The translations under genes were made by a program, and so were the position numbers. DNA of 64,000 bases from Terriglobales bacterium (GTDB lineage: Bacteria; Acidobacteriota; Terriglobia; Terriglobales; Acidobacteriaceae), in NCBI GenBank assembly GCA_025451215.1, contig JANWKU010000109.1, positions 1-64,000 of the forward strand. The letters are read 5' to 3'. The notes below the pieces were generated by a model. That model saw only the letters and a list, made by a program, of their open reading frames with translations, ran no database searches and was not told the DNA's origin. Below, in pieces: positions 12,403-33,902 of the stretch (the stretch's first letter is position 1; each line of letters starts with the position of its first letter).

Positions 12403-13360
12403 GTTTACCTTTCCCAAGCACAACGCCGATGCGTGGATCCCTTTCTCCAGGCTTCACTCCCTGTAATTGTTGATGGAGTTGCAGCAATGTCCTGGCAGCT
12501 TCCCACAATTCGGTATTTTCGCTCGCCTCCACATGGGGAGAAGACACAACATTCAAGCGAAGGTCAGCGGACACTTCATCAATGATTTCTGTAGTGACAG
12601 TGGATAATTGGCGGGCGTAAGCGCTGATCAGGGCATTCTCACAGATGGTATTGATCAACCGGGGTATCCCGCGGGAGTGGCGGCATATTCTGACCATCGT
12701 CTCTGCAGGAAATATACAGTCTGGTTGCGGAGCGCCTGCAAGCTGCAAACGTCGCTGTATATATCCCATGGCCTCTTCATGTTTCAGAGGCTCCAAATGA
12801 GTGCGCAAAACAATTCTTTGTTTCAACTGCCGCAATTCAACGGAGTCTAGTTTTTCATCCAATTCCGGTTGCCCCACCAAAAGTATCTGCAGCAACTTGC
12901 CTCGCGCCGTCTCCAGGTTGGTCAACAGACGAATTTCTTCAAGCACCTCAACAGACAGGTGGTGGGCCTCATCAATGACTAGTACGGTAGTCAGGTTTTT
13001 TCGATGCCGAGCAATGAGAAAATTGCTCAATTGTAGAAGCAGTTCACTTTTGGTCTTGCCAGGGGCAGGAATTTCAAAATCAAGGGCTATATATTGCAGG
13101 AAATCGAGCGGCGATAAGCGACTATTGAATACGTATGCGTAAGTCACATTGCCGTGATTCAACAATTGCAGCAGACAGCGTACCAAAAGAGTTTTTCCCG
13201 TACCTACTTCGCCCGTCATTACCACGAAGCCTTTATGGCGGCGCACACCATAGTAGAGAGCGGCTAGAGCCTCGTTATGCCTCTTCGTCGGAAATAAAAA
13301 CGATGGGTCTGGACTAACCTCAAATGGATTGCAGTGTAGACCAAAAAATTGTTTATACAT
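12386..13360 (-). CDS. ExeA-like AAA+ ATPase (XrtA/PEP-CTERM locus-associated)
   Basis: A 324-residue protein opening MYKQFFGLHCNPFEVSPDP, the standard start of ExeA/GspA-type ATPases. Walker A is GEVGTGKT, Walker B is VLVIDEAHHL, and sensor/arginine regions are visible (VLRTHLEPL, SRGIPRLINTICENAL). No membrane segment or peptidoglycan-binding domain follows, unlike true ExeA. In exosortase-type exopolysaccharide loci this ATPase always sits beside the Wzz and tyrosine kinase genes, as here. A role in assembling the export complex is inferred. Confidence 0.87.
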   Translation of the reverse strand: MYKQFFGLHCNPFEVSPDPSFLFPTKRHNEALAALYYGVRRHKGFVVMTGEVGTGKTLLVRCLLQLLNHGNVTYAYVFNSRLSPLDFLQYIALDFEIPAPGKTKSELLLQLSNFLIARHRKNLTTVLVIDEAHHLSVEVLEEIRLLTNLETARGKLLQILLVGQPELDEKLDSVELRQLKQRIVLRTHLEPLKHEEAMGYIQRRLQLAGAPQPDCIFPAETMVRICRHSRGIPRLINTICENALISAYARQLSTVTTEIIDEVSADLRLNVVSSPHVEASENTELWEAARTLLQLHQQLQGVKPGERDPRIGVVLGKGKHEPYI

Positions 13361-13366
13361 CGTGAA

Positions 13367-14962
13367 TTAACCGTGAAGGAAAGTGATCACAAATGCGACC
13401 AGCACAGAAAAAGCTACCGCTCCGGCCGCAGCCAACTTCAGCCAAACACTTCGCTTCTCTTGGTGCTCTTCTTCCAAAGTGGAAATCGATGGAATCTCGA
13501 CCATAACTTCGGCCGGGACCAACCTCTTGAACTCTGCTTCCGTGAAGATGCGATTGTCAAGAAATTCTGCTCCCAACGCGCAGGCCGCCCCTAAGGCAAG
13601 CCCTAGAGCAATGCCCACCCCAAATAATTTTGTACGGTTTGGCGAATCAGGTTTTGTAGGCAAGTTAGGAGGATCCTGAACGCGAAAATGCTCGCCTTGC
13701 TGCTGATATTCCAAATTCGTGGCTAGTTCTGATTCATTTTTTCTTTTCAGCAAAGAATCGTAGTCAGCCTGGGATTGATTATATCCGCGGGTAAGTTCCG
13801 CCAGTTGCTGCTCTCGAACGGGGGCGTCATTCAGGTGTTCCTGATACTGTGCAATTCTTCCTTGCAGGATTTTGACTGATTGTTCCCGGTTGCCAATCTC
13901 AATTTGATTGGCCTTCAGCTGGCTTTGCAGATCCAGTACCGGTCCCGCATCGTGTGCGGAGGAATAGTTTGTATCAGACGACTGAGCAGGCGCGGATTTT
14001 AGCTGGCTCTCAATTTCCTGCTTCATATGTTGAGTTTTAGCAATTTGATCTTTGACCTTGCGTACATCCGGATATTCATCGGTGTAGCGAGAACTGAGGT
14101 CTGCCAACTGTGCGCGCAGCCGATCAAGTTCTCGATCAATGGCGGCTACCCCAGATACCGTACCGTTAGTATCACCCTTGTCCGTTACCCGTTCCAGAGA
14201 ACGATATTGTCCGAGCAAGGATTCCAAATATACTTTATGTTCCTTCGCGCTATTCAGAGTTGCTTGTTCACTTTGCAACTGCGTTTGCAACCCATTCAGT
14301 ATCTGGAGATTGCTTTGCAACTGGCCGGGAAGCTCTCCTAGGTGCTCTTGATTGAATTGGCGCACCTTCCCCTCTTGCGCCGCAAGCGCCTGGCGAGCCT
14401 GCTCCAGCTGATTGGACAAAAAGTTTGTAGTATTTTCCGATTGTTGCTGGCGTACTTCGAGGTTTTCATTAATAAATAAATCTGTAAGCTCGCTGGTCAC
14501 ACGCTGAGCGAGTTGCGGATCACGCGAAGAATAATAAACGTTGAACGAACTTAACTGTCCTCGATCGGGGGAGCGGACCAAATCGATTTCAATATCTTTC
14601 CTCATTCGGTCAACCAGCTCATCCGGGGATGCATGAGTGCGGTCTTTGCTGTACAAGTTGAATTGATCGATAATATGCAAAAGTCGCGTGCGGCTAAGGA
14701 TTTGCTGCGAAATGGTGTCTAAACGGTTTTGCAAGTCTTCAGCGATGTTAGAGGGAACCAAAGTTGACGGTACGGATGGCTGCTCAATGAGGATAAGCGT
14801 GCCGGAACGGTACATGGCAGGCATCATCCAACTCGTGATCCAAACTAAAAGCCACCCAATAAAAAACGGAATTAAAAAATACCAGCTTCGCCGGCGCAGC
14901 AGATTTAAATAGCGCCCCCAGTCAAGACTTTCCGAACTTTCTTGTTCAAGATCTTCTGGCAT
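13367..14962 (-). CDS. Wzz/GumC-type polysaccharide co-polymerase
   Basis: A 531-residue inner-membrane protein with one transmembrane helix near residues 29-50 (YFLIPFFIGWLLVWITSW) and a second at about 507-528. Between them is a large periplasmic region that is mostly Gln/Glu/Leu-rich coiled coil (roughly 180-420). A Pro-rich segment before the second helix (DPPNLPTKPDSPNR) is the typical Wzz motif. It sets chain length and bridges to the outer-membrane export protein. Its kinase partner is the separate gene at 11524-12402. It is 2 nt from the upstream and 6 nt from the downstream gene. Confidence 0.9.
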   Translation of the reverse strand: MPEDLEQESSESLDWGRYLNLLRRRSWYFLIPFFIGWLLVWITSWMMPAMYRSGTLILIEQPSVPSTLVPSNIAEDLQNRLDTISQQILSRTRLLHIIDQFNLYSKDRTHASPDELVDRMRKDIEIDLVRSPDRGQLSSFNVYYSSRDPQLAQRVTSELTDLFINENLEVRQQQSENTTNFLSNQLEQARQALAAQEGKVRQFNQEHLGELPGQLQSNLQILNGLQTQLQSEQATLNSAKEHKVYLESLLGQYRSLERVTDKGDTNGTVSGVAAIDRELDRLRAQLADLSSRYTDEYPDVRKVKDQIAKTQHMKQEIESQLKSAPAQSSDTNYSSAHDAGPVLDLQSQLKANQIEIGNREQSVKILQGRIAQYQEHLNDAPVREQQLAELTRGYNQSQADYDSLLKRKNESELATNLEYQQQGEHFRVQDPPNLPTKPDSPNRTKLFGVGIALGLALGAACALGAEFLDNRIFTEAEFKRLVPAEVMVEIPSISTLEEEHQEKRSVWLKLAAAGAVAFSVLVAFVITFLHG

Positions 14963-14964
14963 GT

Positions 14965-16284
14965 TTACCTTCCTAAAGACCGTTCAAATTGGTAGGAGAT
15001 TGTGACCCATCCGCGATTTACATTGGGGTTACTCGAAATTGACGGAACGCTAACGTAATGTTGATTTACACGGCTATAACCAATCTGAGCGGAAAAATGC
15101 GGGCCAAAAGAACGCTGCACGGAGCCACTGAACAAGAAGGTATGCCCACTCTGGCTAGTCATACCCGCCGTTTGCAATACATCATTCGTACTGTAAACTC
15201 CCTCGATCTCGCCGTTCAAATGCTGCGTGAACCGATGGCGGAAGGCAGCATTCGCCAGATAAGAACGAACGGCCCCCTGTAATCCCCCTCCCGTGCTGAT
15301 GCTGCGTGAAGCATTCAGCGCCAAGCTATTGCGAGTACCCTGCAAATTGATTCCGCCGCCCGCTGTCGGCGACCATTCGGAGAAGGATAGTAAAGATGCC
15401 TCTTGCGTGTCGGCGTGCTGCGCACCCCCAAATAATGAGAATGAAATACTCCTTCCAAAATACAGAGTATAAAAAAGGGTCGCGCTGTGAACTTGCGTTT
15501 CCAATTCCGATGGGTGTGCCACTATGTCTTCAAAGCCATAGTTTGTCCCAACATAATTGCTGGCGTTAAACCGGTGCGTATAAAAAGCTTGGGCGCCATA
15601 CTGACTGGAGTCGGACAAACCCTGAAGCGATGAATCGCCAAGAAAATACATTTCGGCGGAACTTCCACCCATGCCTATCATCGAATTTGGGGAAAATTGA
15701 TATGTGACTTGACCACTGTCGTTATTACTGAATGTGTTAACCAGCGGGGGAACAACCACAAAGGTCTGAGTTGGTAACACATTCGTGCCGCTGGTTGCAG
15801 TCCCGGGTTGCAGCAGTCCCGAAAAGGATGGTGTCTTCGCCAAATTGTCCTGGAGCGTCAAAGTAACATGTGGAGACATCTCATACTGAAGGTTCGTAGA
15901 GAAAACATGATCCACCTGGTCCTCGGGGGTAAATCTTTGGTAAAGAGTGAAGCCAGGGCTGTAATTTAAATTCCATTTCAACCGGGAACGCGTCATGTCG
16001 AATGCAATGTTGGGTGAGATCGTGTAGCTGGCATCTCCTTCAGCAGGAACACTGGTGAAGATATTGTCGTTGTATCCGCCTTGCACGCTCAGACCACCGC
16101 GAAGATAATTTGATCTTTCCAATTCTGAGGTAAAAGCAATCGAATCACCGCTGATGCTCACAGCTTGAGGAGTCACCATCGGCCGGTCCGCAGCTCGGGC
16201 AGAAACCGTGCCATCTGCGGTCTGAGATTGCCCCGGTAATGCCGCAAAAAATAAAAATGCGATGATCACTAAATTTCTATTCAT
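14965..16284 (-). CDS. Outer-membrane beta-barrel protein of the exopolysaccharide export system
   Basis: A 439-residue protein with a signal peptide (MNRNLVIIAFLFFAALPGQSQ). It then has alternating-residue strands rich in Ser, Thr, Tyr and Phe across the whole length, typical of a 16- to 20-strand barrel, with repeats such as VTLTLQDNLAKTPSFSG and TLFYTLYFGRSISFSLFGG. It corresponds to the barrel protein that accompanies Wza-like and Wzz-like proteins in XrtA/PEP-CTERM loci. It probably forms or supports the outer-membrane exit channel. The C-terminus ends in Arg rather than the usual aromatic residue. Confidence 0.8.
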   Translation of the reverse strand: MNRNLVIIAFLFFAALPGQSQTADGTVSARAADRPMVTPQAVSISGDSIAFTSELERSNYLRGGLSVQGGYNDNIFTSVPAEGDASYTISPNIAFDMTRSRLKWNLNYSPGFTLYQRFTPEDQVDHVFSTNLQYEMSPHVTLTLQDNLAKTPSFSGLLQPGTATSGTNVLPTQTFVVVPPLVNTFSNNDSGQVTYQFSPNSMIGMGGSSAEMYFLGDSSLQGLSDSSQYGAQAFYTHRFNASNYVGTNYGFEDIVAHPSELETQVHSATLFYTLYFGRSISFSLFGGAQHADTQEASLLSFSEWSPTAGGGINLQGTRNSLALNASRSISTGGGLQGAVRSYLANAAFRHRFTQHLNGEIEGVYSTNDVLQTAGMTSQSGHTFLFSGSVQRSFGPHFSAQIGYSRVNQHYVSVPSISSNPNVNRGWVTISYQFERSLGR

Positions 16285-16289
16285 TTCGG

Positions 16290-16925
16290 CTACGGAACAA
16301 TGATCGTATCGTCGGCTTGGAGTTGGATGTTTTGTTGCGCACCTTTACCGTCGATCACGTCTTTATAGTTAAACGGGACGCGTTGCGGCTGGCCTAATGC
16401 GTCCTTCCTCAAAACATAAATCGATTTTTTCTTGGCGAAGTCACGGAAGCCGCCCGCGAGTGCAATCGCATCGAGAACAGTGGTCGAACTGACGAGCGGA
16501 TAAGCGCCGGGCTTCGCGACCATACCCAGCACATTGAACTTTTGACTCTTACTTTCCTGCACCATCACGGTAACTTGAGGATCAGAAATGTAAGTCTTCA
16601 GTTTGCTGGTGATTTCCTGTTCCAACTGCAACGGCGTGCGACCGCTGGCCTGTATCTCACCGACTAACGGCAAAGAAATTTTTCCGTCTGAACGAACCGG
16701 TACGATGCGAGAAACATCCTGTTCTTTCCAAACGTTGATAGACAACATGTCACTTGCACCAATTACATAAGTCCCATCGTGTGGTTTGCTGCTTTGATCC
16801 GTTCCTGGCGCGGTTTGCGCGGCGGACGAACCACCCGTATTTTGCCCAAACGTCGAAACCGCCAACGCAATTAAACCCAGTAGAGCCAATCCGCGGTTCA
16901 TAAACTTATGAGTCTCTTTTCTCAT
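16290..16925 (-). CDS. Polysaccharide export protein, OPX (Wza-like) family
   Basis: About 211 residues from the ATG at 16925, which has AGGAG seven bases upstream; a longer start at 16961 is less likely. A signal peptide (RGLALLGLIALAVSTFGQ) is followed by a poly-export domain (YVIGASDMLSINVWKEQDVSR; DGKISLPLVGEIQASGRT). Then comes one SLBB domain (FNVLGMVAKPGAYPLVSS; DAIALAGGFRDFA). Unlike Wza it has no lipobox Cys and no long C-terminal amphipathic helix, so it is a short OPX that probably relies on the barrel protein at 14965-16284 to cross the outer membrane. Confidence 0.9.
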   Translation of the reverse strand: MRKETHKFMNRGLALLGLIALAVSTFGQNTGGSSAAQTAPGTDQSSKPHDGTYVIGASDMLSINVWKEQDVSRIVPVRSDGKISLPLVGEIQASGRTPLQLEQEITSKLKTYISDPQVTVMVQESKSQKFNVLGMVAKPGAYPLVSSTTVLDAIALAGGFRDFAKKKSIYVLRKDALGQPQRVPFNYKDVIDGKGAQQNIQLQADDTIIVP

Positions 16926-16976
16926 ACATTCGCTCCTAATTCCGATCTTGGTATGACTCACGGAAACGACCGGTCG

Positions 16977-18515
16977 TTAATGGCCGTGCCCATTTCCTCT
17001 GGGGCCATTGCTCCCTGTCATGGGTGAAAGGAATCTGACAGGCGTCATATTGTACTGCTGAATCTTGTAAAGCAACGTGCGATAACTGACCTGCAGCAGG
17101 CGGGCGGCGGCCCTGCGGTTCCAATGGGTTTGCTCCAAAGCGCTGAGAATCGCGCCACGTTCGGCCTCGCCCTTTACCGTCTGCACTAGGGATTTTAGAC
17201 CCGAGTTGCGGTCTTCGCCTTCGCTATTCTCGCCAGTGTTTCCTTGCAAGTCTTCCGGGGTATTCGTCACTGAACCAGGCGCGAACCGCAGACCATTTTG
17301 GAGTTCGCCAAGTGCGGCCTCTTCATCATGCGTCACCAGGTATCGCTTCACGAAGCTCTCCAGTTGCCACAAGTTCCCGGGCCACGCATATTGCTGGCAA
17401 GCGTGCAGAAGGGTGGACGAAAATGGAGTCGGTTCCAGACCATAACGGCGTGCAAATTGGTTCATGAAGTGCCCCAGCAGTAAAGGGACTTCATTGCGCC
17501 GCTGCCGCAAAGGCGCGATATGCATGGTGAAGGAGCTGAGCTGGTAGTACAAATCCTGGCGGACGCTACGATCCGCAAGAGATGCCTCAATGTTGCTGCT
17601 CGTTGTGGCAATAACGCGTACGTCAAATCTGGTTGCACCCCCATCATGTGCAGCTGCGGATTGTTTCTCCTCGAGGACACGCATAAGGTGGGACTGCGCT
17701 GCCGCGGGCATTTCCGTAAGCTTATCCAGCAGGATGGTTCCTTGACGGCAGAATTCAAACTTTCCCGGGCGGACGCGTTGTTCCGCCGCGGGACTGCCAA
17801 AGAGATCCAGCAAGTCTCCACCCAGAGCCGCGCAGTTTACTTTTAAAAACCGGAAACCGGAACGGACAGAGAGCTTGTGGATTAGCCGGGCAAGGGTCTC
17901 TTTGCCGCTTCCCGGTTCGCCCACGATCATAACCGGCACATCTAACTGTGCCAGAAGATCGGCCTGTGCGCGCAAGCGCCGCATGACCGAACTGGCAACG
18001 ATAAAAACACGATCGTCGCCGATTCGTTCCACTTCTTCCGTAGGCGATTCAAAGTCGTTTTCCGAGTCCGCGAAGGGAAGGTGCCGCTTGACTGCGGATT
18101 CCAGTTGCGCGTCCATCAGAGGCTGCACAAGATATTCCCGCGCACCCATGCGAATGGCCTCTGTTTTTTGCTGCAAATCGTGCGAATGCGCGAGCACCAA
18201 GACCGGCAGTTCGGGTCGAAGCCTGCGCAACCAGCGAAGGGTATGCATGCCATCTTCAACATTTTGACGGCCAAGATCGAGGAGTACCAGGTCGGGCCGA
18301 GCGCCCGACTGAACACGATCCAGCGCTTCCCACCCACTGGTGGCTGCCTCCAAACGCCAGTCATTCGCACCGGCTATCGTCGCCAAGGGATCGAGTGAGG
18401 CAAGCTCTTTACTCACAACTAGCAAGCGCAGAAGTGGCGCGGAGCCAGAATCCAAGCGTGCGGTCTTGGAATAAATGTTAGGGATGCTTGAGATAGCTCT
18501 CACCAGATAGGACAA
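16977..18515 (-). CDS. PrsR-like regulator: degenerate receiver + AAA+ (sigma54-type) + Fis HTH
   Basis: 512 residues. An atypical receiver domain (about 28-145) keeps an Asp at 80 (LVLLDLG) but lacks the N-terminal acidic pair and has Gln131 where the conserved Lys belongs. An AAA+ domain follows with Walker A GEPGSGKET (199-207). The GAFTGA loop that contacts sigma54 is not present after LLDLFG, and Walker B reads ILLDK (261-265) instead of ending in DE. A Fis-type HTH (NRRAAARLLQVSYRTLLYKI) ends the protein. It resembles the PEP-CTERM-box regulator PrsR by place and layout, but may not hydrolyse ATP or activate sigma54. It lies between the NusG-like gene and the export genes. Confidence 0.85.
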   Translation of the reverse strand: MSYLVRAISSIPNIYSKTARLDSGSAPLLRLLVVSKELASLDPLATIAGANDWRLEAATSGWEALDRVQSGARPDLVLLDLGRQNVEDGMHTLRWLRRLRPELPVLVLAHSHDLQQKTEAIRMGAREYLVQPLMDAQLESAVKRHLPFADSENDFESPTEEVERIGDDRVFIVASSVMRRLRAQADLLAQLDVPVMIVGEPGSGKETLARLIHKLSVRSGFRFLKVNCAALGGDLLDLFGSPAAEQRVRPGKFEFCRQGTILLDKLTEMPAAAQSHLMRVLEEKQSAAAHDGGATRFDVRVIATTSSNIEASLADRSVRQDLYYQLSSFTMHIAPLRQRRNEVPLLLGHFMNQFARRYGLEPTPFSSTLLHACQQYAWPGNLWQLESFVKRYLVTHDEEAALGELQNGLRFAPGSVTNTPEDLQGNTGENSEGEDRNSGLKSLVQTVKGEAERGAILSALEQTHWNRRAAARLLQVSYRTLLYKIQQYNMTPVRFLSPMTGSNGPRGNGHGH

Positions 18516-18533: not shown

Positions 18534-19085
18534 CTAAATTGCTTCCACGTCGTAACCTTCAATTCGAACAGCCATCGAACGCTGGATAACGTCCACTGAA
18601 ATCACCAGCATGCGTTCTCCGCTCCGGGCCACCAGTACACCTTCCACTCCCGCTAGCGCTCCGCTTTTGATGCGCACTCGCTGACCGATCTTCAAAAATG
18701 GATATGCCTTGAAGGGCAGTTTGTTAGCAAGCAGAGTCTGAACAGCCTCGATTTGTTCTTGCGGAATGGGTGTACCTTCGCCACGCGTTCCGATGATTTG
18801 AAATACGCCGTCGGTACGGCATACTCGCAAACGCTGTTCGTTGGTTGGCGCAACCTTCACAAAGACATAGCAGCTGAAGAGCGGCAATTCCACAATCTTT
18901 TTGCGATCGCTCCATCGATGCTCTTCGCGTACCGTAGGAAGAAAAGTAGAAATACCCTGCTCTTCTAATCGGTAGGCCACGACCTTTTCGTGGCGAGAGC
19001 GGGTTTGCACGGCATACCAGTTTCCAGTGTCCACAATCATATTCTCCGCCGAGGACACGAAATTGGAAAGTTGCCCGCCGTTCAT
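18534..19085 (-). CDS. NusG-like (RfaH/UpxY family) transcription antiterminator
   Basis: A 183-residue protein with an NGN domain (NWYAVQTRSRHEKVVAYRLE; FLPTVREEHRWSDRKK; LPLFSCYVFVKV) and a C-terminal KOW domain (FLKIGQRVRIKSGALAGVEG). Specialised NusG paralogues of this type lie at the head of long polysaccharide operons, where they suppress termination. Here it is the first gene of a run of 18 minus-strand genes covering about 19 kb, exactly the context in which such a factor is needed. It is 18 nt upstream of the PrsR-like gene. Confidence 0.9.
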   Translation of the reverse strand: MNGGQLSNFVSSAENMIVDTGNWYAVQTRSRHEKVVAYRLEEQGISTFLPTVREEHRWSDRKKIVELPLFSCYVFVKVAPTNEQRLRVCRTDGVFQIIGTRGEGTPIPQEQIEAVQTLLANKLPFKAYPFLKIGQRVRIKSGALAGVEGVLVARSGERMLVISVDVIQRSMAVRIEGYDVEAI

Positions 19086-23760: not shown

Positions 23761-26700
23761 TTAGTGCGACGCGTGGCGCGCGCTTGCTCTGTGCGAAGAA
23801 GATGTCGGAGCGGCGGCAGGAATTTGCAGTCGTTGCGACGGATCGCCGAGCAAAATAAATGAACGGCGAACATCGGAATCAGTGATGGCACCCTTTGCCG
23901 CCTGGATTGCGTCGCCAATCGTTTCTCCGGGAGTAAACACGGCACTTGTGAACGTTTGGTCCATTTGGAATTGCGGCCCAGGCGAAGTCAGCGAGGACGA
24001 CGCCCAAACCGCGACGGCGCCGCCGTTATTGGCCAGTAATAGAGACTCGGCCATGCTTACCGTATAGACATCCTGGAAATATCCGTTCAGGCAATTCATA
24101 ATCACGAAAACGGGCAAGCGCGGTCCATTGGTTAATGACGATGCGAGCGCGCTGGTCAGCAGGTTTTCATCCGACCACACTTCGACCGATCCGTGCCCGT
24201 CATAGTTGACCAGCAATGCACCGTTGTTGATGCCATTCAAAACCGCTTGCTGTGCGGCACTCGCGGTCATCGAACTAGCGAATACATCCGTGGCGGAAAT
24301 AGAAGGGGGTAACAGAGACTGGATGGTCTGCGCCTGTTGCGAGAAAGGTACTACGCTGTCATCCTTGTCCGCCACCATCAAGGCCTGGCTACTCCATGTT
24401 CCGGCATTTTGACCGCTGTCATATCCCACGATCTTCCCCACGACGGTTTGCGCTTCGTCGGCGGTCTGCACGGGCAGACGTCCCGTGGAAATTTGGGCAA
24501 GGCCAGCGCCGGTGAAATCGGAGAACCAGTCATCGGAAGCGGTAGTCAATTCGGCGGTAGGGACCAGCGCCGTAGGCACGAAGTCGAAGTTGCCGAACCC
24601 GAGATAATTCCGCGGATCAATGGATGCGTCCCCGACTAATAGAAGATATTTGGGAGCGTGCTTCCAGACTTTGGTTGCGTTCTGCAGAAATGTCCGAATG
24701 CTGGCGGGATCCTTTTCACCAAAATTGAATTCGTCGTAGATGTCCTGCACATTGATGAGTGCGACGGTGTGTCCCTGGCTCTGGCGCAATTGCACCAGTG
24801 GAGCCATCTGGGTCAAAAAGTCTGGCGCGGAAATCATGACCAGGTCAGCGCCGGACTGCGCATTGTGCCAATTGGAAGGCTGGTTCGCGGTAATGCTTGC
24901 GGGCTGGCCGATCTGATCGTCCGCCAGGGCCAATATCTGGTGCGTCACCGATTGGAAGCCGGCGACATTGATATCCAGAGCAATGTTTCCTGACTGTGTG
25001 CGCACGCGGAAAGGCAATTCCAGGGGCGCTCCGGGATTTGTGATGTCGAGCACTTGCGTGGGCGTCTGCTGGAAGTTCTTCACGGTCACTAGATCTCCGC
25101 CCTGGGCCGTGAATTTAAGCGTGTCTGATTCCGCCGTATAGCTGCGCGGATACGTCAGCGTAATGTGGTCTACCAGGCTGAGGTCTTCTTCCCCATTTTG
25201 CGCGGTCAGGGTCACGGTATCGCTGCCTTGCTGCAATGAATCATAAGGAACGGTGAAATCAGCCGTGCCTTCATCCTCGTTGGAGAATTGCATATCGCCC
25301 AGGGACGTGCCGTTGAAGCTGACGGTCACATCGTGGACAATTTCATCTCTACCGCCCTGCAACACGACTTCCAGTTTGGCCCCGTCACCACTCGGCGCAA
25401 GGTCCGGAGTATTCAGTACCTGGTCAACGGGTGTGGATGAAACTAGCGCTCCGAAGAAGTGGTCAGTATCGGTGCGTAGTAATGCTGCGAAGAATGTTGT
25501 CTTCTCCTGGAGCTCGACGGTCTGGGGGAAGCTTTGCGATTGCTGCCCGGAATGCGAGACGACCGCGTACCGGATGCGCGCGCCTGTTTGGTTGCCGGAA
25601 ACCAGCCAGTAGATTCTCTGGTTCGAGAAAGCCGTATCAATTCCGGTTCCGTAGAATTGAATTGCGGCCTGCCGACCAAAGCCGCCGAATCCGCCGCGGC
25701 TTCCAGTCAGCAGGATCGGCTGTTCAACTCCTTCGGCAAACAATTGCAGCGTGTCAGGATTCACGGAGGGGTTCAGTCCCGCGGCCACAAGCTGCGCCTG
25801 CGTGACGCGATACCAGCCTTCATGATCAATGGCGATCTTAATCGCCGGTCCCGCCGCGATCTGAAATTGCGTCTGCTTCGCGGTTGGCGTGCGCCAGAGC
25901 ACAGGCACGGCCTTCTTTAAATGGCTGATGGATGAATCCGAAGGAGCAGTTGAACTGTTGAAATTCGCGATGGTTACGGATGATTGCGGCAAGGAAGGTT
26001 GGCCCAACGAAGATTGCGACGATACGCTCTGGCCCATTGCGCGTGATCTGCCGTTCATGTTCCGAGCAATCGAGGGATCCATCAGGCTGGATGGCGCGCT
26101 CTCAACCGCGATCGGGCCATGCAGCGTTCTGGTGCCGTTCAAATCCACGTCTTCAAGCCAGTAAGAATTTGCGGGAGCGTTGCGGTCAAGCCATGCATAA
26201 CTCTTGCCTGAGTGGCGCGAGTCGGCGCGGCGCATCATGAGGCTTGATCCGGCGATCAGCGACGGATTCACGCGGACGCGCCGGCCATTCTGATCCCGAT
26301 AGACATTAAAGCCGAGATTGCGAACTTCTCCGCCCGTTCTCCAGGTAAGCAGCACGCCCCCTGCCGTGGATATCGCCGAAAAAGATTGCAGTTTGACCTC
26401 GGTGGTGAAGGTGATGGTGGAAAGGAATGTGGAAGTGTTATTGGCCAGCACCGAATCAAATTGTGCCGCCGTAACGGTCGCGGTGTTGCTCACCTGGGCA
26501 GGGACACCTGCGACTACTTGGATATTAAATACGACGGTGGCATTTAGGGCTAACGATGCCGCAGTGCAAGTAACGGTCCGGGTGAGGGCCACATAACTGC
26601 ACCCCGCCGAGGCGGAACTAAATGTAACGCCTGTCGGCAGTACGTCCGTGGCAGTCACCGTCGTCGCCGTAGAAGGCCCGTTGTTGTGCGCCGTAAGAAT

Positions 26701-29700
26701 GTAGCTAAATGTCGTTCCCTGCTTTACCGGATTGGCGGAGGCAGTTTTAACGATTGAAATCTCGGCACTTGCGCCAATCACCGTGGTCACGGAAGAAGTA
26801 TTGTTCGCGGAGGTGGGATCGGTCTGAGATGCGCTGACCACGGCGGTATTCACCGCGGAACCAACAGTCTGCGCAATCACTGAAATGGTAAACACAGCCG
26901 TTGCATTCACTGCGAGGCTAGCGGCCGTACAGGTCACTGTTCCGGCACTGAATGAACATCCTCCACTGGCAGAGCTGAAGCTCACTTGCGAAGGCAGAGT
27001 GTCGGTGACAACAATGGTGGTGGCAACGGTTGGGCCGTTGTTTTTCGCGGTCAGCGTGTAAGTAATCGTGTCGCCTTGATTCGCCGTCGCGGGCCCGGTT
27101 TTGGTAATGGACATATCAGACGCGGGAAGGATGGTCGTAGATGCGCTGGCGGTATTGTTGACCAGGTTGTAGTCGGCCTCGTTTTCAGTAACGTTCGCGG
27201 TATTGGTTACCGTTCCCACAGCCGCCGCGACTACGTTGATGGTGATCGCAGGGGTGGACGCTCCAGCGGCAAGAGTTGCAAAGTTGCAAGTGACTGTGCC
27301 CGCGGCTTGCGTACAGCTCGCGGCCGGCGTGACCGACGAGAATGTAACGCCGGCTGGAAGTGTATCCACCAATTGGACCGCACTGGCTGCAGTGGCGCCG
27401 TTGTTGGTGATGCCAAGCGAATACGAGAACGTACTACCCAGGAGAGCAGTGGCCGGGGCTGTCTTGGTAACCGCCACGTCAATACAGGTCGCGCTGAAGT
27501 GCGGCCCGGGCGTGGACGCATAAGTAATATTGGTCGCGCTGGTTCCCGCCTGGCCGTCGGTTGCACCATATTGAAACTGGCCGGGAGCAGGCAAAGTTGT
27601 TCCATGCGTACCTGCGGCAATATTGACAGTGCCCGCACCGGAAAGCAGCACTACACCACCACCGCCGCCACCGCCGGGTCCATGGCGGTCCGCGATCGGA
27701 GGACCAGCAGCCGCGTCATCATCCCATGCGTCGCCGCCGCTTCCACCCGCGGCGTTGGCGGTTAACGTACCTACCGCGCCTCCGGTGGAGAGGACGATTA
27801 CCGTGCCCCCAGCGCCGCCGCCACCGCCTGCATCGTTAGAGGTCAGATCGTAAGCGTTTGCGCCGTTTGCCGACATCGTTCCAGTTCCAGTGATGCTGCC
27901 CGCGCGAACGATAATGATGCCGCCGCCCGCGGCTCCACTACTGGCCTGGGCGATTCGGGTAGAAGCCGCTCCTGCTACGTTGTTATTGCTATTGTTGCGC
28001 GAGCCTGCACCGCCGCCGCCGCCCATTGTCACCCGGCCCGAACTTGACGGGAAAGGCGAACCGCCAAGTCCGCCCACGCTTAAATTGGAATCCCATGCAT
28101 CACCGCCGAAACCGCCCGCGCCACCGTTGGCTCCGCCGCCGCCGCCGGAATTCTGGTCATTCGCAGTATTCGCATCGGTCCCACCACCACCAGCATTGCC
28201 CGGCGCGCCGCGTCCCATACCGCCATTGGGATATCCATCCACTCCGGTGGAGAACGGTGTGTTCGCGACTTCCAGCCACATTGGAGTGCCGGCAATACCT
28301 TCGCCTTTCGAACCATCAATGCCGGTAACCGGAACCCCGGTAAATGCAGGACCAGCAGGGTAGGTCGTGGGCGAAGCTTGCCGATAGTCATTTGTACTCG
28401 AACCAGCAACGCCGCCATCGAGCATGAGCCCAGCAGCGCCACGAAAACCTAGGCCGTCCACATTGATGGTCTGGGTGTTCAACGTAAGCGCGCCTGAAGT
28501 ATCAAGAACGAAAATGCCGCCAGTGGAGCCGTTCCATGCCGCAGCGGTAAGTCCAGCGCCGAGTGTTGCGGTCGCAAAATGAGGAACACGCACCACCTGG
28601 AAGGTGCGCTGGCCTTGCGTTCCAGAGGCTGCAGCAGAGTTATATCCGAACAACAGGCCGCCACCGGGTCCAGCCCCGGCAATACTCAAGGTGCCGCCGC
28701 CGACCGGAACCGCACTGGTAGCCGTAGCGAATTCATAAATTCCGGCGTTATTCAGGTTCGTCCAACCGGAGCCCGTCGAGCCATCGCCGTAGGTGCCGTC
28801 GTTATTGGAACTGATCGCTGCATCCTGCATTTGAATTATTAAAACTTCATCGCCGGAAGCGATCGGAGTGGCGCTTCCCGTTGCGGTTCCCAGCGTGATG
28901 GAAGTCGCTCCCGCGGCAACATTCGAACTGCCAGGGTAATAAGTATTGATGACGCCGGTCAGGGTGCCGCCAGCCGTCGCGGTAGGAATGGTGCAGACGT
29001 TCAACTGCGAGTAGCCGATGCCAGTGGAGGAATTGTTGCCAGTGTCGAGATCAGTCACAGTTCCCGTAACGGACACGGTATCGGGATACCCTCCACCTTG
29101 GGTTGGTGTGGCGACAATCGTGACGGTGGAACTTGCGCCGCTGCCGAGCGTACCGAGATTGCAGGTCACCACGCTTCCAACGTGCCCGCATCCCGTGCCG
29201 GTCACGGAAACGAATGTCAGTCCGGAAGGTAGTGTGTCTGTCACCGTAGCGCCTGTGGCCGTGCTGGGCCCATTATTAGTGACCACCGCCGTGTAAGTAA
29301 TATTTCCCGGGAAGGCAACGGCGGTGCCGCTCACCGCGACCGACAAGTCGGCTTGAAAAGGCCGCACGGATACCGCTCCGGCAGACCAATTGGAGTTTGC
29401 ATTGAAGGTCTCACTTAAGGGAACATTAGCGGCGCCCGCGCGCGTGGAGCCGGTGCCGTAAACGTCGGTGGTCGCTGCGCCCGACGTGCCCGTCCAAGCT
29501 TGCGTCTGCGTGGGGCCGTAGGCTGTAACTGAGTCAGTGCCGGCAATGGTGAGCGTGTCCACCACAGTATCGCCATTGGCGCTGGGAACGTTGAGCGTCG
29601 CAATCGCGGCAGCCGCGCCGTCGCCGGAGGTGAATCCGCGAATGGGCGAGGTTTGGTCTGCGCCCGTGACGTTAGTTGCGCCAACAATTGTGCCGACCAC

Positions 29701-31155
29701 TCCAGTTCCACCTGGAAGATCTAAGTTCACGACAACATTATTCGTGCCGGTGGCAGGGGCGACTAAATACCAGATCTCAACTCGCCGCGAATTGCCTGTG
29801 TCGTTGTGTGCTCCAGCCAGGGTGAGAGCTACTCCGTTATATGTAACGCTGCTCACCGTCGCACCCGTATTGCCGGTAATGTTCATGGACACACCGACAA
29901 CCAGGACATTGTTGGTCCCAGCTACGGTCGCTGGAACCGTGATAGGAACAGTTGCAGGGTTAATGGAAATCGCGCCGATCGCCCAGCTCTGCGTCGCAGG
30001 AACCGCTGTGTCCGACATAGTGACACTGGCGGCCCCAGGCTCGGTAGAACCGAAGCCGTACACGTCGGTGCCCTGCACAGCCGCAGTAGAATTTTGTCCC
30101 CATATGCCGGTCTGCCCGGCGCCAGCACTGGCGGTTTCATCGCCGGAAAGCGCGGAGGTATCAATGACCATTGCGCCGACGCTGCTTGTAACTACCACCG
30201 AGGGACTACCCGTATTTCCAACGCTTCCAGCAAAAGTTCCAACCGGGGTGGACTGACTTACATTTGTGAATGAGGCAACGCCCACCACTGCGCCGACCCT
30301 AGTTCCGTTCGTACCTGTAAAGCTGACAACGATACTATTGGCACCGGCGGGGGGATTGAGAACGCGATACATTTGCACTCTGCGACGATTTAGCGCATCC
30401 GTCTCAGTACCTAATGCAGTCACAGTTGCTGCTCCGTCGGTTACCGTGTTGACGGCGACGTTGGTTCTGGCTTGATGGTTAAGAGAAACTCCTATAATCA
30501 AAAGGCGATTGGCAGTCGCACTAACAGTCAGAGGAACCGTAATGCTGGTGGTGCCCGTATGTATTTCTGCCCCTACCGAATTTGCAGCATCAAAAGCGAC
30601 CTGTGCAAACGAAGCGCCTGCAAACGCAGCCAACGCGAAAAGAAGGAAGACCAACCGCCGGAAAATAAAAACGCTGCGGAACGTTCCCAGCTTGCACGAG
30701 GTGCGCACCTGACGAATTTTCCCAGCTACTTTACTCTTTGCCATAGAAATGTTCCGCTTTATCCGCGACACGGTTCCATATAAAGAGACAGTGCAGACAC
30801 CCCCGCTTAGAGCCTCTTCCTTAGCGACCACCCGCCCAAGAATCTGTTCTGCGCGAATGCTACCGTCATCTTCAAGTGATGCATCTCCGCGAGTGATCAA
30901 AATATTTCTAGCTGCATCCATCGCGGCCAACCGATGCACACGGAAACCCCGCTCATCCTTGAACAAAACAATGTCTCCGACTGAGAGGATCCGGGTATTC
31001 ACTCGTTCCACGCGCAGCACTTCGCCATCGCGAATCGTGGGCGACATGCTCGCGCCAACCGCGCGAAAGCAGAAGCTCTTCCCGCCGCTCATCAGCTCGC
31101 CGGCAAGTTCATTAAATAAATTCGAGTCAGGCCTATCTTGGGCGCTGGAATTCAA
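23761..31155 (-). CDS. Giant S26-like / DUF11 / gingipain-type C25 peptidase protein
   Basis: One open frame of 2464 residues. It begins at TTG 31155 behind GGAG and overlaps the kinase gene by 23 nt. Residues 1-135 are a signal-peptidase-like S26 domain with Ser36 (GASMSPT), His74 (FRVHRL) and Asp91 (ITRGDAS), the Ser-His-Asp set of the SipW/ER type. A second possible start at ATG 30744 (residue 138) opens a basic segment and signal-like helix ending ASFAQ. Then follow two long beta repeats (about 185-600), a DUF11 repeat near 605, a Gly-rich stretch (975-1170), three more DUF11 repeats (1225-1578) and a fibronectin-like part. A C25 peptidase (about 2095-2445) ends the protein, with His2321 (YDGHGS) and Cys2355 (MNCLNG). 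No sorting tail is seen. It may be one fusion or two overlapping products. Confidence 0.85.
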   Translation of the reverse strand: MNSSAQDRPDSNLFNELAGELMSGGKSFCFRAVGASMSPTIRDGEVLRVERVNTRILSVGDIVLFKDERGFRVHRLAAMDAARNILITRGDASLEDDGSIRAEQILGRVVAKEEALSGGVCTVSLYGTVSRIKRNISMAKSKVAGKIRQVRTSCKLGTFRSVFIFRRLVFLLFALAAFAGASFAQVAFDAANSVGAEIHTGTTSITVPLTVSATANRLLIIGVSLNHQARTNVAVNTVTDGAATVTALGTETDALNRRRVQMYRVLNPPAGANSIVVSFTGTNGTRVGAVVGVASFTNVSQSTPVGTFAGSVGNTGSPSVVVTSSVGAMVIDTSALSGDETASAGAGQTGIWGQNSTAAVQGTDVYGFGSTEPGAASVTMSDTAVPATQSWAIGAISINPATVPITVPATVAGTNNVLVVGVSMNITGNTGATVSSVTYNGVALTLAGAHNDTGNSRRVEIWYLVAPATGTNNVVVNLDLPGGTGVVGTIVGATNVTGADQTSPIRGFTSGDGAAAAIATLNVPSANGDTVVDTLTIAGTDSVTAYGPTQTQAWTGTSGAATTDVYGTGSTRAGAANVPLSETFNANSNWSAGAVSVRPFQADLSVAVSGTAVAFPGNITYTAVVTNNGPSTATGATVTDTLPSGLTFVSVTGTGCGHVGSVVTCNLGTLGSGASSTVTIVATPTQGGGYPDTVSVTGTVTDLDTGNNSSTGIGYSQLNVCTIPTATAGGTLTGVINTYYPGSSNVAAGATSITLGTATGSATPIASGDEVLIIQMQDAAISSNNDGTYGDGSTGSGWTNLNNAGIYEFATATSAVPVGGGTLSIAGAGPGGGLLFGYNSAAASGTQGQRTFQVVRVPHFATATLGAGLTAAAWNGSTGGIFVLDTSGALTLNTQTINVDGLGFRGAAGLMLDGGVAGSSTNDYRQASPTTYPAGPAFTGVPVTGIDGSKGEGIAGTPMWLEVANTPFSTGVDGYPNGGMGRGAPGNAGGGGTDANTANDQNSGGGGGANGGAGGFGGDAWDSNLSVGGLGGSPFPSSSGRVTMGGGGGAGSRNNSNNNVAGAASTRIAQASSGAAGGGIIIVRAGSITGTGTMSANGANAYDLTSNDAGGGGGAGGTVIVLSTGGAVGTLTANAAGGSGGDAWDDDAAAGPPIADRHGPGGGGGGGVVLLSGAGTVNIAAGTHGTTLPAPGQFQYGATDGQAGTSATNITYASTPGPHFSATCIDVAVTKTAPATALLGSTFSYSLGITNNGATAASAVQLVDTLPAGVTFSSVTPAASCTQAAGTVTCNFATLAAGASTPAITINVVAAAVGTVTNTANVTENEADYNLVNNTASASTTILPASDMSITKTGPATANQGDTITYTLTAKNNGPTVATTIVVTDTLPSQVSFSSASGGCSFSAGTVTCTAASLAVNATAVFTISVIAQTVGSAVNTAVVSASQTDPTSANNTSSVTTVIGASAEISIVKTASANPVKQGTTFSYILTAHNNGPSTATTVTATDVLPTGVTFSSASAGCSYVALTRTVTCTAASLALNATVVFNIQVVAGVPAQVSNTATVTAAQFDSVLANNTSTFLSTITFTTEVKLQSFSAISTAGGVLLTWRTGGEVRNLGFNVYRDQNGRRVRVNPSLIAGSSLMMRRADSRHSGKSYAWLDRNAPANSYWLEDVDLNGTRTLHGPIAVESAPSSLMDPSIARNMNGRSRAMGQSVSSQSSLGQPSLPQSSVTIANFNSSTAPSDSSISHLKKAVPVLWRTPTAKQTQFQIAAGPAIKIAIDHEGWYRVTQAQLVAAGLNPSVNPDTLQLFAEGVEQPILLTGSRGGFGGFGRQAAIQFYGTGIDTAFSNQRIYWLVSGNQTGARIRYAVVSHSGQQSQSFPQTVELQEKTTFFAALLRTDTDHFFGALVSSTPVDQVLNTPDLAPSGDGAKLEVVLQGGRDEIVHDVTVSFNGTSLGDMQFSNEDEGTADFTVPYDSLQQGSDTVTLTAQNGEEDLSLVDHITLTYPRSYTAESDTLKFTAQGGDLVTVKNFQQTPTQVLDITNPGAPLELPFRVRTQSGNIALDINVAGFQSVTHQILALADDQIGQPASITANQPSNWHNAQSGADLVMISAPDFLTQMAPLVQLRQSQGHTVALINVQDIYDEFNFGEKDPASIRTFLQNATKVWKHAPKYLLLVGDASIDPRNYLGFGNFDFVPTALVPTAELTTASDDWFSDFTGAGLAQISTGRLPVQTADEAQTVVGKIVGYDSGQNAGTWSSQALMVADKDDSVVPFSQQAQTIQSLLPPSISATDVFASSMTASAAQQAVLNGINNGALLVNYDGHGSVEVWSDENLLTSALASSLTNGPRLPVFVIMNCLNGYFQDVYTVSMAESLLLANNGGAVAVWASSSLTSPGPQFQMDQTFTSAVFTPGETIGDAIQAAKGAITDSDVRRSFILLGDPSQRLQIPAAAPTSSSHRASARHASH
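27640..28230 (-). repeat. Gly-rich low-complexity coding stretch
   Basis: Within the giant protein gene, clusters of GGN codons (seen as GCC/ACC/TCC runs on the plus strand) encode blocks of five to seven glycines separated by Ala, Asn and Asp. Examples are DQNSGGGGGANGGAGG and GPGGGGGGGVVLL. It corresponds to residues of about 975-1170. The repeats are irregular in length and in frame with the protein, so this is a flexible linker or parallel-beta glycine-rich region, not a satellite or CRISPR. Confidence 0.7.
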
Positions 31156-32056
31156 GGATTTTCTCCACGGCAGAGTGATTGGGGAGGAATTGGAATTTGT
31201 AACAAGCGACCGTCCGCGTCAGATCATCCAGATAAGCAAGCGTGGCAGTAAGCGCCTGCGGATCGTGAAACGGCAAGAAGCAACGTGCAAACAATTCCGC
31301 TGCTGCCGCCGCTTGCGGCATCGCGACAACGTCGTTCCGCTCCCCATGTTCCAAAATAAAAATCTGATTGATCGGAGCTTCGCGTGGCGACGCAAATCCG
31401 GCATCGCCGTGCCAGGGCGTTCCGTGCATGAAAAAACGGTCGTCACGTTTGCGGACAATAATTCGGTCATCGCTTAGGATCCGGACGCCGGGCACCGATT
31501 GCCAGAGGCGCGTGGTTGTGCTCTTTCCCGCGCCGGAGTGTCCTACAAAAAGAGAACTACTGCACGCGTCGTCGGTAATGCCGCAGCCATGCACTTCAAC
31601 GCCGCGCCCTCGCGCCAATCGGTTGGTAACGATCAATTCGTCGAGCGGGTATTCGAGCGCGCGGACATTGGCTTTGTCAGGAAAGCAATCGCGCACGAAG
31701 AGTACGCGGGCGCGAGTAAAATCCCTGTCTATTAAAAGGCGCTTATAAGGTCGCGGGCCAAGAACTCGCGTCGTGAAATCGAAAACGTAATGCTCGCCGT
31801 CCTCATAAAGCGTCCATACCGCGCCTGAATCGAAAAGTTTTTTGCTATCAGCGGGAAGGAGTGAGTCAACCCATTCCAGATCAATTTCTATTTCGCAATT
31901 TTGTGCAGGGATCGCAAACGATTGGTGATCAGGATCGAGATGAACATTCATCTCTGCGGCCGTAAAGCCCAAAGTCAGATCACCGATTTGCAAGCAACAG
32001 CGCCATTTTGCCGCCTGACTTTGATTCTCTGTTTGTGTTTGCTCGCTGATCATCAT
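31133..32056 (-). CDS. HPr-kinase-like protein (PEP carboxykinase-type P-loop kinase)
   Basis: 307 residues. The C-terminal half has a P-loop LFVGHSGAGKSTTTRLW, then RILSDDRIIVRK, where the double Asp corresponds to the HprK Walker B/catalytic region, and HGTPWHGDAGFASP, typical of HprK-like proteins without the HPr partner. The N-terminal 130 residues are not recognised. Relatives occur in RiPP clusters, and some (PadeK, ThcoK) phosphorylate a serine of a lasso-peptide precursor. Start ATG 32056 has GGAG eight bases upstream and lies 16 nt after the small peptide gene, which ends in Ser. Phosphorylation of that peptide is inference. Confidence 0.82.
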   Translation of the reverse strand: MMISEQTQTENQSQAAKWRCCLQIGDLTLGFTAAEMNVHLDPDHQSFAIPAQNCEIEIDLEWVDSLLPADSKKLFDSGAVWTLYEDGEHYVFDFTTRVLGPRPYKRLLIDRDFTRARVLFVRDCFPDKANVRALEYPLDELIVTNRLARGRGVEVHGCGITDDACSSSLFVGHSGAGKSTTTRLWQSVPGVRILSDDRIIVRKRDDRFFMHGTPWHGDAGFASPREAPINQIFILEHGERNDVVAMPQAAAAAELFARCFLPFHDPQALTATLAYLDDLTRTVACYKFQFLPNHSAVEKILEFQRPR

Positions 32057-32072
32057 TCAAACGACTCCACAA

Positions 32073-32249
32073 TCAGGAACCAATTGAACTGCATCCCGTC
32101 GATGCGGTACATACCGACAAACTCGGCCCCGAAACAAACATACTTTTGCAATTTCCCAGCACCGCCTCTTCAGGACGCAAACTGATGGTCTCGCAAACCG
32201 GCGGCTGATATGGTTTTTTGCTCTTGCCGTCCTCGCGTTCATTCTTCAT
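32073..32249 (-). CDS. Candidate RiPP precursor peptide (58 aa, Cys/Ser-rich C-terminus)
   Basis: Translated directly from the sequence, the peptide is 58 residues. A charged N-terminus (MKNEREDGKSKKPYQPP) is followed by a conserved-looking leader motif TISLRPEEAVLGNCK. A Ser/Thr/Gly-rich tail with Cys at 34, 47 and 53 (another Cys at 19) ends in Ser. Its ATG at 32249 has GAGG six bases upstream and is 8 nt after the radical SAM stop, so it is translated with it. Short KPY..P..ETISLRPEEAVL-type peptides next to radical SAM/SPASM and PqqD genes are typical precursors. The modification is unknown. The longer frame from 32342 lies inside the radical SAM gene and is not the start. Confidence 0.78.
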   Translation of the reverse strand: MKNEREDGKSKKPYQPPVCETISLRPEEAVLGNCKSMFVSGPSLSVCTASTGCSSIGS

Positions 32250-32257
32250 AAAATCCC

Positions 32258-33523
32258 TCAATGCCCGCAACTTCCGCAACCGCCGGAGCTGGCGGCGGAA
32301 TGATTCAAAATCGGCAGCAAAACTTCCGAAGGCCCCGTCCACTCGCCGACATTAATTTCACGGGAGGCAATCCGCAGCGCTGACTCTTTTGCCGTTTCGT
32401 AGTGGTCGCCGCCTTCACAAAAAGCACAATCCCCGTGCGCCGGGACCTGATAGCCCAACGCCATGGCGCGCAAATGGGCGACTTCGCATAAAAATTCCAC
32501 CGGCGATTCCGCATCTCCGTTTTCCAACTCGCCATTCGCCGGACACATACCGCACAGACTGCGCAGGCGGCAATCGGTGCATTTAGAGATGGTCTTTGCC
32601 TCGCGTTTTCTTACTTGCAGAAGGAACTGCTCCCATCCCTCCTTCACGGAACCCTGGCGCAGATCGTAGGTATCCGCCTTAGACAGCACGCAAATACTCA
32701 TGCGGCCGTAAGGATCAATAGAAAAGGCACCCACGCCGCCGCCACAAACATAAAGAGAATTCTTGCCCTTGCCCCTGGCTGGCGGCGGAGATTGAATTCC
32801 CTGCTCGGCGAACCGTCGGTACTCGGCCTTAGTGTCGGGCGAGTGAAGGTCGAGCGCGACCACTTCTTCCGGCAAAAGCCGCACCGCGAGTGGACTCTGC
32901 GAGCAATCAATGCGCGGATTCATCAGGGAATCGAATTTGAATTCGAGGCCGAGATCTTCCCTCACAAAACTTCGCATGGACAATACTTCATGCTTGTTCA
33001 CGGTGGTTGCGACCGTCTTCAGCTTCAGCGGCAATCCTCGGCTACGCAGCAGATTGATGCCACGCATGCAGCGCTCATAACTGCCGGGGATTTGCGTGAG
33101 CGCCTCGTAGGTTTCTTTCGTCCTGCCATAGAGCGTGATTTCAATCGCGAACGGCGGCCATTCAAGCAGATAGTCGGCGATCTTTTCATTAATCAGATTG
33201 CCGTTCGTAAACAGAGTAACGAGAAGACCTTTTTTCTTGGCGTAGGTATAGATTTCCAGAAAATCTTTTCGGGCAAAGATTTCGCCGCCGGTGAACAACA
33301 GCCAGAAGCAACCCATCTCGGTAATTTCATCGAGCAACCGAAAATATTCTTCCTTACTCAATTCGCGGTTGCGCGCGGATAAATCTCCCATCGCCAAATT
33401 GTTGTAGCAATGCTGGCATTCCAGGGGACAGCGGTGGGTCATTTCCATGGTTACTTCGAGGGGAGTGCGGTGATTAGGCTGGTGGAGCGATCGGCTTAGC
33501 TCTGTGTAACTGCCAGGATTCAT
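32258..33523 (-). CDS. Radical SAM/SPASM peptide-modifying enzyme
   Basis: 421 residues. The radical SAM cluster motif is C32-x3-C36-x2-C39 (HRCPLECQHCY). TGGEIFARKDFLEI follows as the SAM-binding GGE motif. A SPASM-type C-terminal domain carries the Cys series in VCGGGVGAFSIDPYGRMSIC, KCTDCRLRSLCGMCP and FLCEVAH, enough for auxiliary 4Fe-4S clusters. Beyond it come DCAFCEGG and a terminal GGCGSCGH that are unusual extra Cys pairs. Start ATG 33523 has GGAG five bases upstream. With a PqqD-like protein upstream and a small Cys-rich peptide downstream, it most likely installs thioether or C-C crosslinks in that peptide. Confidence 0.92.
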   Translation of the reverse strand: MNPGSYTELSRSLHQPNHRTPLEVTMEMTHRCPLECQHCYNNLAMGDLSARNRELSKEEYFRLLDEITEMGCFWLLFTGGEIFARKDFLEIYTYAKKKGLLVTLFTNGNLINEKIADYLLEWPPFAIEITLYGRTKETYEALTQIPGSYERCMRGINLLRSRGLPLKLKTVATTVNKHEVLSMRSFVREDLGLEFKFDSLMNPRIDCSQSPLAVRLLPEEVVALDLHSPDTKAEYRRFAEQGIQSPPPARGKGKNSLYVCGGGVGAFSIDPYGRMSICVLSKADTYDLRQGSVKEGWEQFLLQVRKREAKTISKCTDCRLRSLCGMCPANGELENGDAESPVEFLCEVAHLRAMALGYQVPAHGDCAFCEGGDHYETAKESALRIASREINVGEWTGPSEVLLPILNHSAASSGGCGSCGH

Positions 33524-33599
33524 GTAATCTCCGCGTGCATGCCTTACCGTTCAACCCTCTTGCGTTCTTACACTCTCAATGCAAACCGCTTCGCGATTT

Positions 33600-33902
33600 T
33601 TAAGCTGCCATCTCGCGAACCAGTCCCGCATCCGTAATCTTGTCGAGAAAAGTCCGCACATCCTGTTCCGCCGTCTCGGGCGTTACTTCGTATTCATCCA
33701 AAACCAAGCTGACCAATTCTTCGCAAGTTTTCGCAGGCTGGAGTTGCCGCCATAAAAAACTTCCCAGTTCATTTAGGCTATAAATCGAGGCCAGATCACC
33801 CACGCCGCCGCGCACAGGAACGATGAGAGTCTCTCCTGCGATCACTCGCGCAACCACGCTATCCGACTGCATGTAACGGCAACTCGCTACGATGGTTGTC
33901 AT
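33600..33902 (-). CDS. PqqD-like peptide-recognition protein (RRE)
   Basis: I place the start at ATG 33902, with GAGG eight bases upstream, giving 100 residues; an ATG at 33965 would add 21 atypical residues. The fold pattern is a small beta-sheet (SVVARVIAGETLIVPVRGG) plus winged-helix part (YSLNELGSFLWRQL; CEELVSLVLDEYEVTPE; DVRTFLDKITDAGLV), as in PqqD. PqqD-type domains bind the leader of a precursor peptide and deliver it to the radical SAM enzyme. That enzyme is the next gene, 76 nt downstream. It is the first gene of the five-gene operon. Confidence 0.88.
   Translation of the reverse strand: MTTIVASCRYMQSDSVVARVIAGETLIVPVRGGVGDLASIYSLNELGSFLWRQLQPAKTCEELVSLVLDEYEVTPETAEQDVRTFLDKITDAGLVREMAA

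Follow-up and report, generated by a model that had tools for sequence, protein, structure and literature searches.

The window, the whole 64,000-nt stretch analysed, comes from a soil acidobacterium and contains a five-gene operon that is likely to encode a RiPP pathway resembling those of linear polyphosphorylated peptides (LPPs) and lasso peptides but with an added radical SAM step, in which a kinase, an S26 peptidase and a C25 peptidase take the roles proposed below. By analogy, the operon would work like the LPP pathway of Bacillota with radical SAM chemistry added to it. All five genes lie on the minus strand between 23761 and 33902 (Table 1). Gaps of 76 nt (PqqD-like gene to radical SAM gene), 8 nt (radical SAM to peptide) and 16 nt (peptide to kinase) separate the first four, and the kinase gene and the giant ORF overlap by 23 nt; this layout, described earlier in a sequence-only reading, proved exact to the base. 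The family identities proposed there (PqqD-like, radical SAM/SPASM, S26 head, C25 tail) were confirmed by Pfam and NCBIfam family searches, and the HprK-like label was weak by sequence and backed by fold. Two starts have alternatives: the PqqD-like gene could begin at an open upstream ATG, 33965, and the giant ORF has an in-frame ATG at codon 22.

Table 1. Genes, peptide segments and protein domains of the operon (window coordinates)
Feature	Position	Strand	Details
PqqD-like RRE gene	33600-33902	minus	100 aa; ATG at 33902
Radical SAM/SPASM gene	32258-33523	minus	421 aa
Precursor peptide gene	32073-32249	minus	58 aa, MKNEREDGKSKKPYQPPVCETISLRPEEAVLGNCKSMFVSGPSLSVCTASTGCSSIGS
Predicted leader, residues 1-29	32163-32249	minus	RRE-binding motif Y14-x-x-P17; cut predicted to follow EEA
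Predicted core, VLGNCKSMFVSGPSLSVCTASTGCSSIGS	32076-32162	minus	Cys C34, C47, C53; C-terminal Ser58
HprK-like kinase gene	31133-32056	minus	307 aa
Giant ORF	23761-31155	minus	2464 aa; TTG start
S26 (SEC11/SipW-type) domain	30781-31155	minus	S36, H74, D91/D97; would act as a leader peptidase in the cytosol
Single hydrophobic segment, residues 162-186, VFIFRRLVFLLFALAAFAGASFAQV	30598-30672	minus	by hydropathy; signal peptide or anchor
Peptidase C25 domain	23827-24840	minus	H2321, C2355; PF01364 E 9e-86

The small peptide is a real gene product. Homologues were found at 24 close loci, the window included, and at about 40 distant loci. Alignment of the 24 close sequences gave 16 invariant columns (Y14, P17, L24, P26-E-E-A-V-L-G32, C34, K35, C47, C53, G57 and S58, the last encoded at 32076-32078). 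Different synonymous codons specify these invariant residues (Ala, Gly, Val and Pro, for instance, each use all four of theirs, and Ser all TCN codons), so the peptide is a selected protein, and a spurious small ORF was ruled out. Neither the window's peptide nor 36 relatives belong to a family in Pfam or NCBIfam. Nearly all homologues carry the YxxP leader motif (WxxP in a few) and conserved Cys; apart from the Cys and the C-terminal Ser, the core differs in length and sequence among species. The C-terminal residue was Ser in 61 and Thr in 2 of the 63 distinct intact copies (65 in the raw count, 63 Ser and 2 Thr, of which two come from loci that repeat the genomes of others, L130 and L131 of L007 and L008), compared with 13% Ser/Thr at the ends of other ORFs in the same loci. 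Three peptide matches with no cassette in their flanking DNA (L098, L100 and L116) were excluded as members and kept in this C-terminal count, and all three end in Ser.

The peptide is also tied to its neighbours. To assemble the close set, genome contigs were scanned using the radical SAM protein as query, which gave 22 orthologous loci at 57-74% identity, and a search for relatives added two. The order PqqD, radical SAM, peptide, kinase, S26 holds at each close locus of sufficient length. Across 64 peptide loci, radical SAM was found at 60, the kinase at 58, the RRE at 53, S26 at 49 and C25 at 33, with many of the absences being contig ends or weak matches. The sequence-only reading had proposed RiPP logic around a genuine small peptide and had named homologous loci lacking a peptide gene as a refutation; no orthologous locus of sufficient length lacked the peptide next to these enzymes, and the proposal is well supported by its conservation and its constant place beside them. 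The same reading had suggested a search for the gene order elsewhere, and the cassette is indeed present across Acidobacteriota and in genomes labelled Myxococcota. Of 396 genomes sampled across the phylum, 50 matched the peptide profile; within the window's own family the cassette is patchy (7 of 37 genomes). The Myxococcota label, which comes from a record title and from the labelling of the tree, applies to a Myxococcales-titled contig (L051), to G715, which carries the cassette twice, to G692 and to a weaker case, G601. Loci with a named record are mostly from metagenome-assembled genomes.

The PqqD-like protein matched PF05402 (E 9e-17), its nearest NCBIfam models were the lasso PqqD/B1 families, below cut-off, and its D81 was conserved in 97%. 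In lasso and LPP systems the leader attaches to a discrete RRE through [Y/W]xxPx[hydrophobic] (PMC10368454, PMC13381572), and the window's leader motif was compared with the lasso YxxPxL (PMC10368454) and the LPP YxxP...FET (PMC13381572). From motif and homology, the PqqD-like protein is a predicted leader-binding adaptor, which would bind the YxxP of the 58-aa precursor and present the precursor to the enzymes.

The radical SAM protein matched Radical_SAM (PF04055, E 6e-18) and has a seven-Cys SPASM pattern. The radical SAM cysteines (C32-x3-C36-x2-C39) and those of SPASM (C260, C278, C315, C318, C324, C327 and C346) were all invariant across 25 homologues, and the closest solved structures include SkfB, PqqE, 5wgg and SuiB-type radical SAM proteins. 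The enzyme would act on the core, most probably modifying the conserved Cys or linking to them, as in a thioether or C-C crosslink. At its C-terminus the protein has a Cys-rich tail, GGCGSCGH (32258-32284, minus), of which the CxxC is retained in most close relatives and gone from many distant ones. At one locus an insertion of ~2 kb separates the radical SAM gene from that of the peptide (L043, 11266-13315).

Two other readings start from this enzyme. The operon could be an ordinary sactipeptide or ranthipeptide cluster with the kinase and S26 as accessory or accidental neighbours, as a SPASM maturase nearest SkfB among solved structures and the conserved core Cys would suggest. We regard this as quite unlikely, since the kinase and S26 recur at 58 and 49 of the 64 peptide loci despite contig ends and weak matches, the C-terminal Ser/Thr would go unexplained, no maturase model reaches its cut-off, and radical SAM and HprK-like kinase are fused into one open frame, cut by the contig end, at one locus (L104, 1-1581, minus). 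Less probable again is that the radical SAM protein makes a peptide-derived redox cofactor of the PQQ or mycofactocin kind, with the kinase and S26 processing it. PqqD does stand beside a PqqE/MftC-like radical SAM protein, and mycofactocin and PqqE models match, far below cut-off; however, the core varies between species save for its Cys and C-terminal Ser, unlike the precursor of a fixed cofactor, and no recurrent dehydrogenase was seen among the annotated neighbour clusters, which cover part of the neighbours. The LPP- and lasso-like pathway with a radical SAM step remains the preferred reading.

Curated models placed the operon in none of the named systems tried. Scores for sactipeptide/ranthipeptide maturases were 72 against a cut-off of 625 (StsB), 53 against 340 (PapB) and 55 against 850 (AlbA); the HPr-rel-A PqqD model TIGR04353 gave 16.8 bits against 35, and GeoRSP and mycofactocin/PQQ models scored far under their cut-offs. 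The SynChlorMet system (TIGR04248-TIGR04251) is similar in its PqqD-like ScmD, its ScmC, which is the best match of the kinase, and its radical SAM/SPASM protein, but its models name two radical SAM proteins whereas the window has one, and the scores stayed below the equivalog cut-offs (36 against 100, 31 against 125 and 84 against 400). Two loci have a SynChlorMet-like layout, with a related peptide beside two radical SAM genes (L096, 4057-7848, plus) or three (L124, 4055-10238, plus), and these likewise failed the cut-offs.

Sequence family matches of the kinase were weak (ScmC 1e-7, Hpr_kinase_C 0.19), and its identity was carried by catalytic residues and fold. H156, a P-loop GHSGAGKST at 172-180 and D196-D197 are present; among 39 aligned homologues H156, G172, S174, G177, K178 and D196 were invariant, and G175, T180 and D197 occurred in at least 90%. 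The lasso kinase BsfK requires H148, G163, G166, G168, K169, S170, D186 and D187 (PMC10368454), and the H-GxxGxGK-DD of the window's kinase fits this pattern with spacing within one residue. A fold search with the AlphaFold model (pLDDT 93.6) found structures of PEPCK and HPr kinase at probability 1.00, with query TM-scores of 0.28-0.46. The kinase profile also matched P-glycoproteins, which was put down to P-loop noise, the fold search having given PEPCK/HprK. The lasso kinases ThcoK and SyanK act on a C-terminal Ser with little other specificity (PMC8498205). Because the catalytic residues and fold are accompanied by a Ser/Thr end in all intact precursors, the HprK-like kinase probably phosphorylates the C-terminal Ser of the precursor. 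Homology does not settle the site, since LPP and Bsf kinases target the core Ser3 (PMC13381572, PMC10368454); the C-terminus is favoured because the predicted cut leaves no Ser at position 3 in the window's core.

The giant protein consists of an S26 head, a hydrophobic segment, DUF11/beta repeats (four DUF11 stretches in the family search) and a C25 tail. Its residues 23-110 matched Peptidase_S24 (3e-5) and the archaeal signal peptidase model TIGR02228 (7e-9), the nearest solved sequences were SEC11 subunits, and the model adopts a signal peptidase/LexA fold. The Ser-His-Asp residues of archaeal-type signal peptidases are kept: in an alignment of 19 sequences S36, H74, R75 and D91 were invariant, with Asp97 in 88%. 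Hydropathy showed no membrane segment in free-standing S26 proteins, and most S26 fusions have the domain ahead of a hydrophobic segment, which in the window has basic residues before it; the domain was therefore placed in the cytosol, where it could reach and cut the precursor. LppS (S29, H68, D93) cuts the LPP leader only with the RRE, after F-E-T (PMC13381572). Because a second type of cassette, described below, has FET at a place similar to that of E-E-A in the window's type, the S26 domain, on the cytosolic side, would by analogy with LppS probably remove the leader at EEA|VLG.

At the other end, the PF01364 match spans residues 2106-2443. A PorU/gingipain-like C25 domain with His and Cys was recognised, the PorU-like match (285 bits, residues 1767-2448) stopping before the C-terminal part of the profile, and here, in contrast to PorU, the domain is fused to S26 and DUF11 repeats. 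The PorU/type IX sortase model stayed below its cut-off (NF033707, 285 bits against 420). SprA_N, a marker of type IX secretion, had no match in 17 genomes, and control genomes gave none either. The sequence-only reading had singled out two peptidases in one polypeptide; this holds in the window and in 12 more close-group loci, and such recurrence in 13 loci rules out an assembly error, but the fusion is lineage-specific, as outside the close group S26 and C25 are separate genes, with C25 near the cassette in many families. In the window's genome and its relatives (61 genomes), C25 was found in 6 of 7 cassette genomes versus 1 of 54 others, that one weak (Fisher p 9e-7). Phylum-wide the link was looser, at 32 of 50 cassette-peptide genomes versus 108 of 346 others (p 1e-5, hand counts from the listed genomes). 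One of the cassette genomes in the window's family, G028 (97% complete), has no C25, and neither have the loci of another family, f27.

The fusion of S26 to C25 in the close lineage, and the co-occurrence of C25 with the cassette, would also fit a reading in which the peptide is a regulator or carrier and the enzymes modify or process the giant C25 protein. We consider this the least probable of the readings weighed, since the cassettes without C25 (G028/L045 and the f27 loci) still keep the peptide, and the peptide carries the RRE-binding motif. With the peptide as the substrate, as we prefer, the C25 giant is most likely its extracellular partner: the peptide would be exported, with a surface location, and the co-selected C25 protein would act on or with it outside the cell. 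A surface role is plausible because the S26 domain of f27 is joined to a Poly_export/SLBB (Wza-like) protein and because the window's cassette lies near an exopolysaccharide locus. The fusion was scanned in L123 (13822-15219, plus), and homology suggests the same in L088-L092 and L121. The exopolysaccharide locus (5848-18515, minus) is of the XrtA/PEP-CTERM type and holds an EPS sugar transferase, a tyrosine autokinase-like gene, an XrtA-associated ATPase, a chain-length determinant and a sigma-54 response regulator; a NusG-like gene lies by it at 18534-19085.

Known relatives of this pathway share much of it. The LPPs, reported from Bacillota in 2026, have a core of RRE, YxxP leader, HprK-like kinase and SpI peptidase (PMC13381572), and comparison with them and with lasso systems was made from the descriptions printed in these papers rather than by alignment with their sequences. 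Judged at the sequence level, a discrete RRE with a YxxP leader and an HprK-like kinase are both found here, as is an archaeal-type SpI leader peptidase with Ser/His/Asp, whether free-standing or fused. One locus, L106, has the full LPP set (S26/SpI, RRE, HprK-like kinase, NTP_transf_5 and an MsbA-like ABC exporter) together with radical SAM and C25; an NTP transferase also lies near the cassette in G010, G015 and G347 and an ABC gene in L117, and searches next to the cassette of the window itself gave neither an exporter nor an NTP transferase gene. The second cassette type (L126-L129 and L133-L135), with ~30% radical SAM identity to the window's and a separate clade on the tree, contains S26, kinase, RRE and radical SAM (no S26 detected in L134, no RRE in L133). 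Its precursors, from six loci (L126-L129, L133 and L135), read roughly KPYxKPxxxxExVFETxALxCGK...S, ending in Ser, and have FET before the presumed cut, close to the LPP leader consensus.

There are also differences from LPPs. The window's precursor departs from the LPP consensus YxxPxVLxHQxIxFETxxS with its Ser3 (it has YQPP...RPEEAVLG and, by the predicted cut, no Ser3), and FET was found in the second cassette type alone. LPPs are described as linear, with no further ring-forming enzyme, whereas radical SAM/SPASM, which may form a ring, accompanies 60 of the 64 peptides here; in addition, the precursors have Cys in the core and a C-terminal Ser/Thr instead of Ser3, C25 is a partner, and the hosts are Acidobacteriota and a Myxococcota-labelled group rather than Bacillota. 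Because a radical SAM core-modifying enzyme is present and the Ser3/FET consensus is missing in the window's type, the system was not filed as LPP. The phosphorylated lasso peptides (paeninodin/Bsf) are similar in their B1/PqqD-like RRE, [Y/W]xxP leader and HprK-like kinase (PMC8498205, PMC10368454), and paeninodin also shares the C-terminal Ser (PMC8498205); here the cassette has radical SAM and S26 instead. The B2 transglutaminase-like leader peptidase (PF13471) was absent from the window's genome, and no asparagine-synthetase-like lasso cyclase was found among the window neighbours scanned with Pfam and NCBIfam. Elsewhere, a lasso B2-like transglutaminase gene lies beside the cassette together with S26 (L114, 7491-7991, plus), and a relative of it beside another (L120, 7678-8139, minus).

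The enzyme combination had been put forward earlier as one not known from a described RiPP class. In part this no longer holds, since kinase, S26 peptidase and RRE with a YxxP leader already define the Bacillota LPPs (PMC13381572). For that trio together with radical SAM/SPASM, a C-terminal Ser/Thr and a C25 partner, no description was found in open-licence papers, nor for the combination of radical SAM, HprK and precursor peptide; the words 'radical' and 'Acidobacter' are absent from the text of the LPP paper (PMC13381572). A bolder proposal is that the operon stands for a separate RiPP class. Its peptide, crosslinked by the radical SAM enzyme and phosphorylated on the C-terminal Ser, would be released by a signal-peptidase-like leader protease that is anchored to proteins of export or of the surface, and a dedicated gingipain/PorU-like C25 peptidase would then process it extracellularly, trimming it or linking it to the surface or to exopolysaccharide; we hold this to be unlikely in its full form.

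In the preferred reading, the logic of RRE, HprK-like kinase and SpI peptidase, first reported in Bacillota, reaches Acidobacteriota and another group with radical SAM chemistry on top, and the pathway is predicted to yield peptides that carry both a radical modification and phosphate. About 60 precursor sequences are now at hand for a family that neither Pfam nor NCBIfam contains, with a predicted cleavage site and a predicted phosphorylation site, both open to testing by co-expression. A lead on the pathway's biological role comes from its recurrent link to C25 and from the polysaccharide-export fusion; for LPPs and paeninodins, too, the LPP paper calls that role unknown (PMC13381572).
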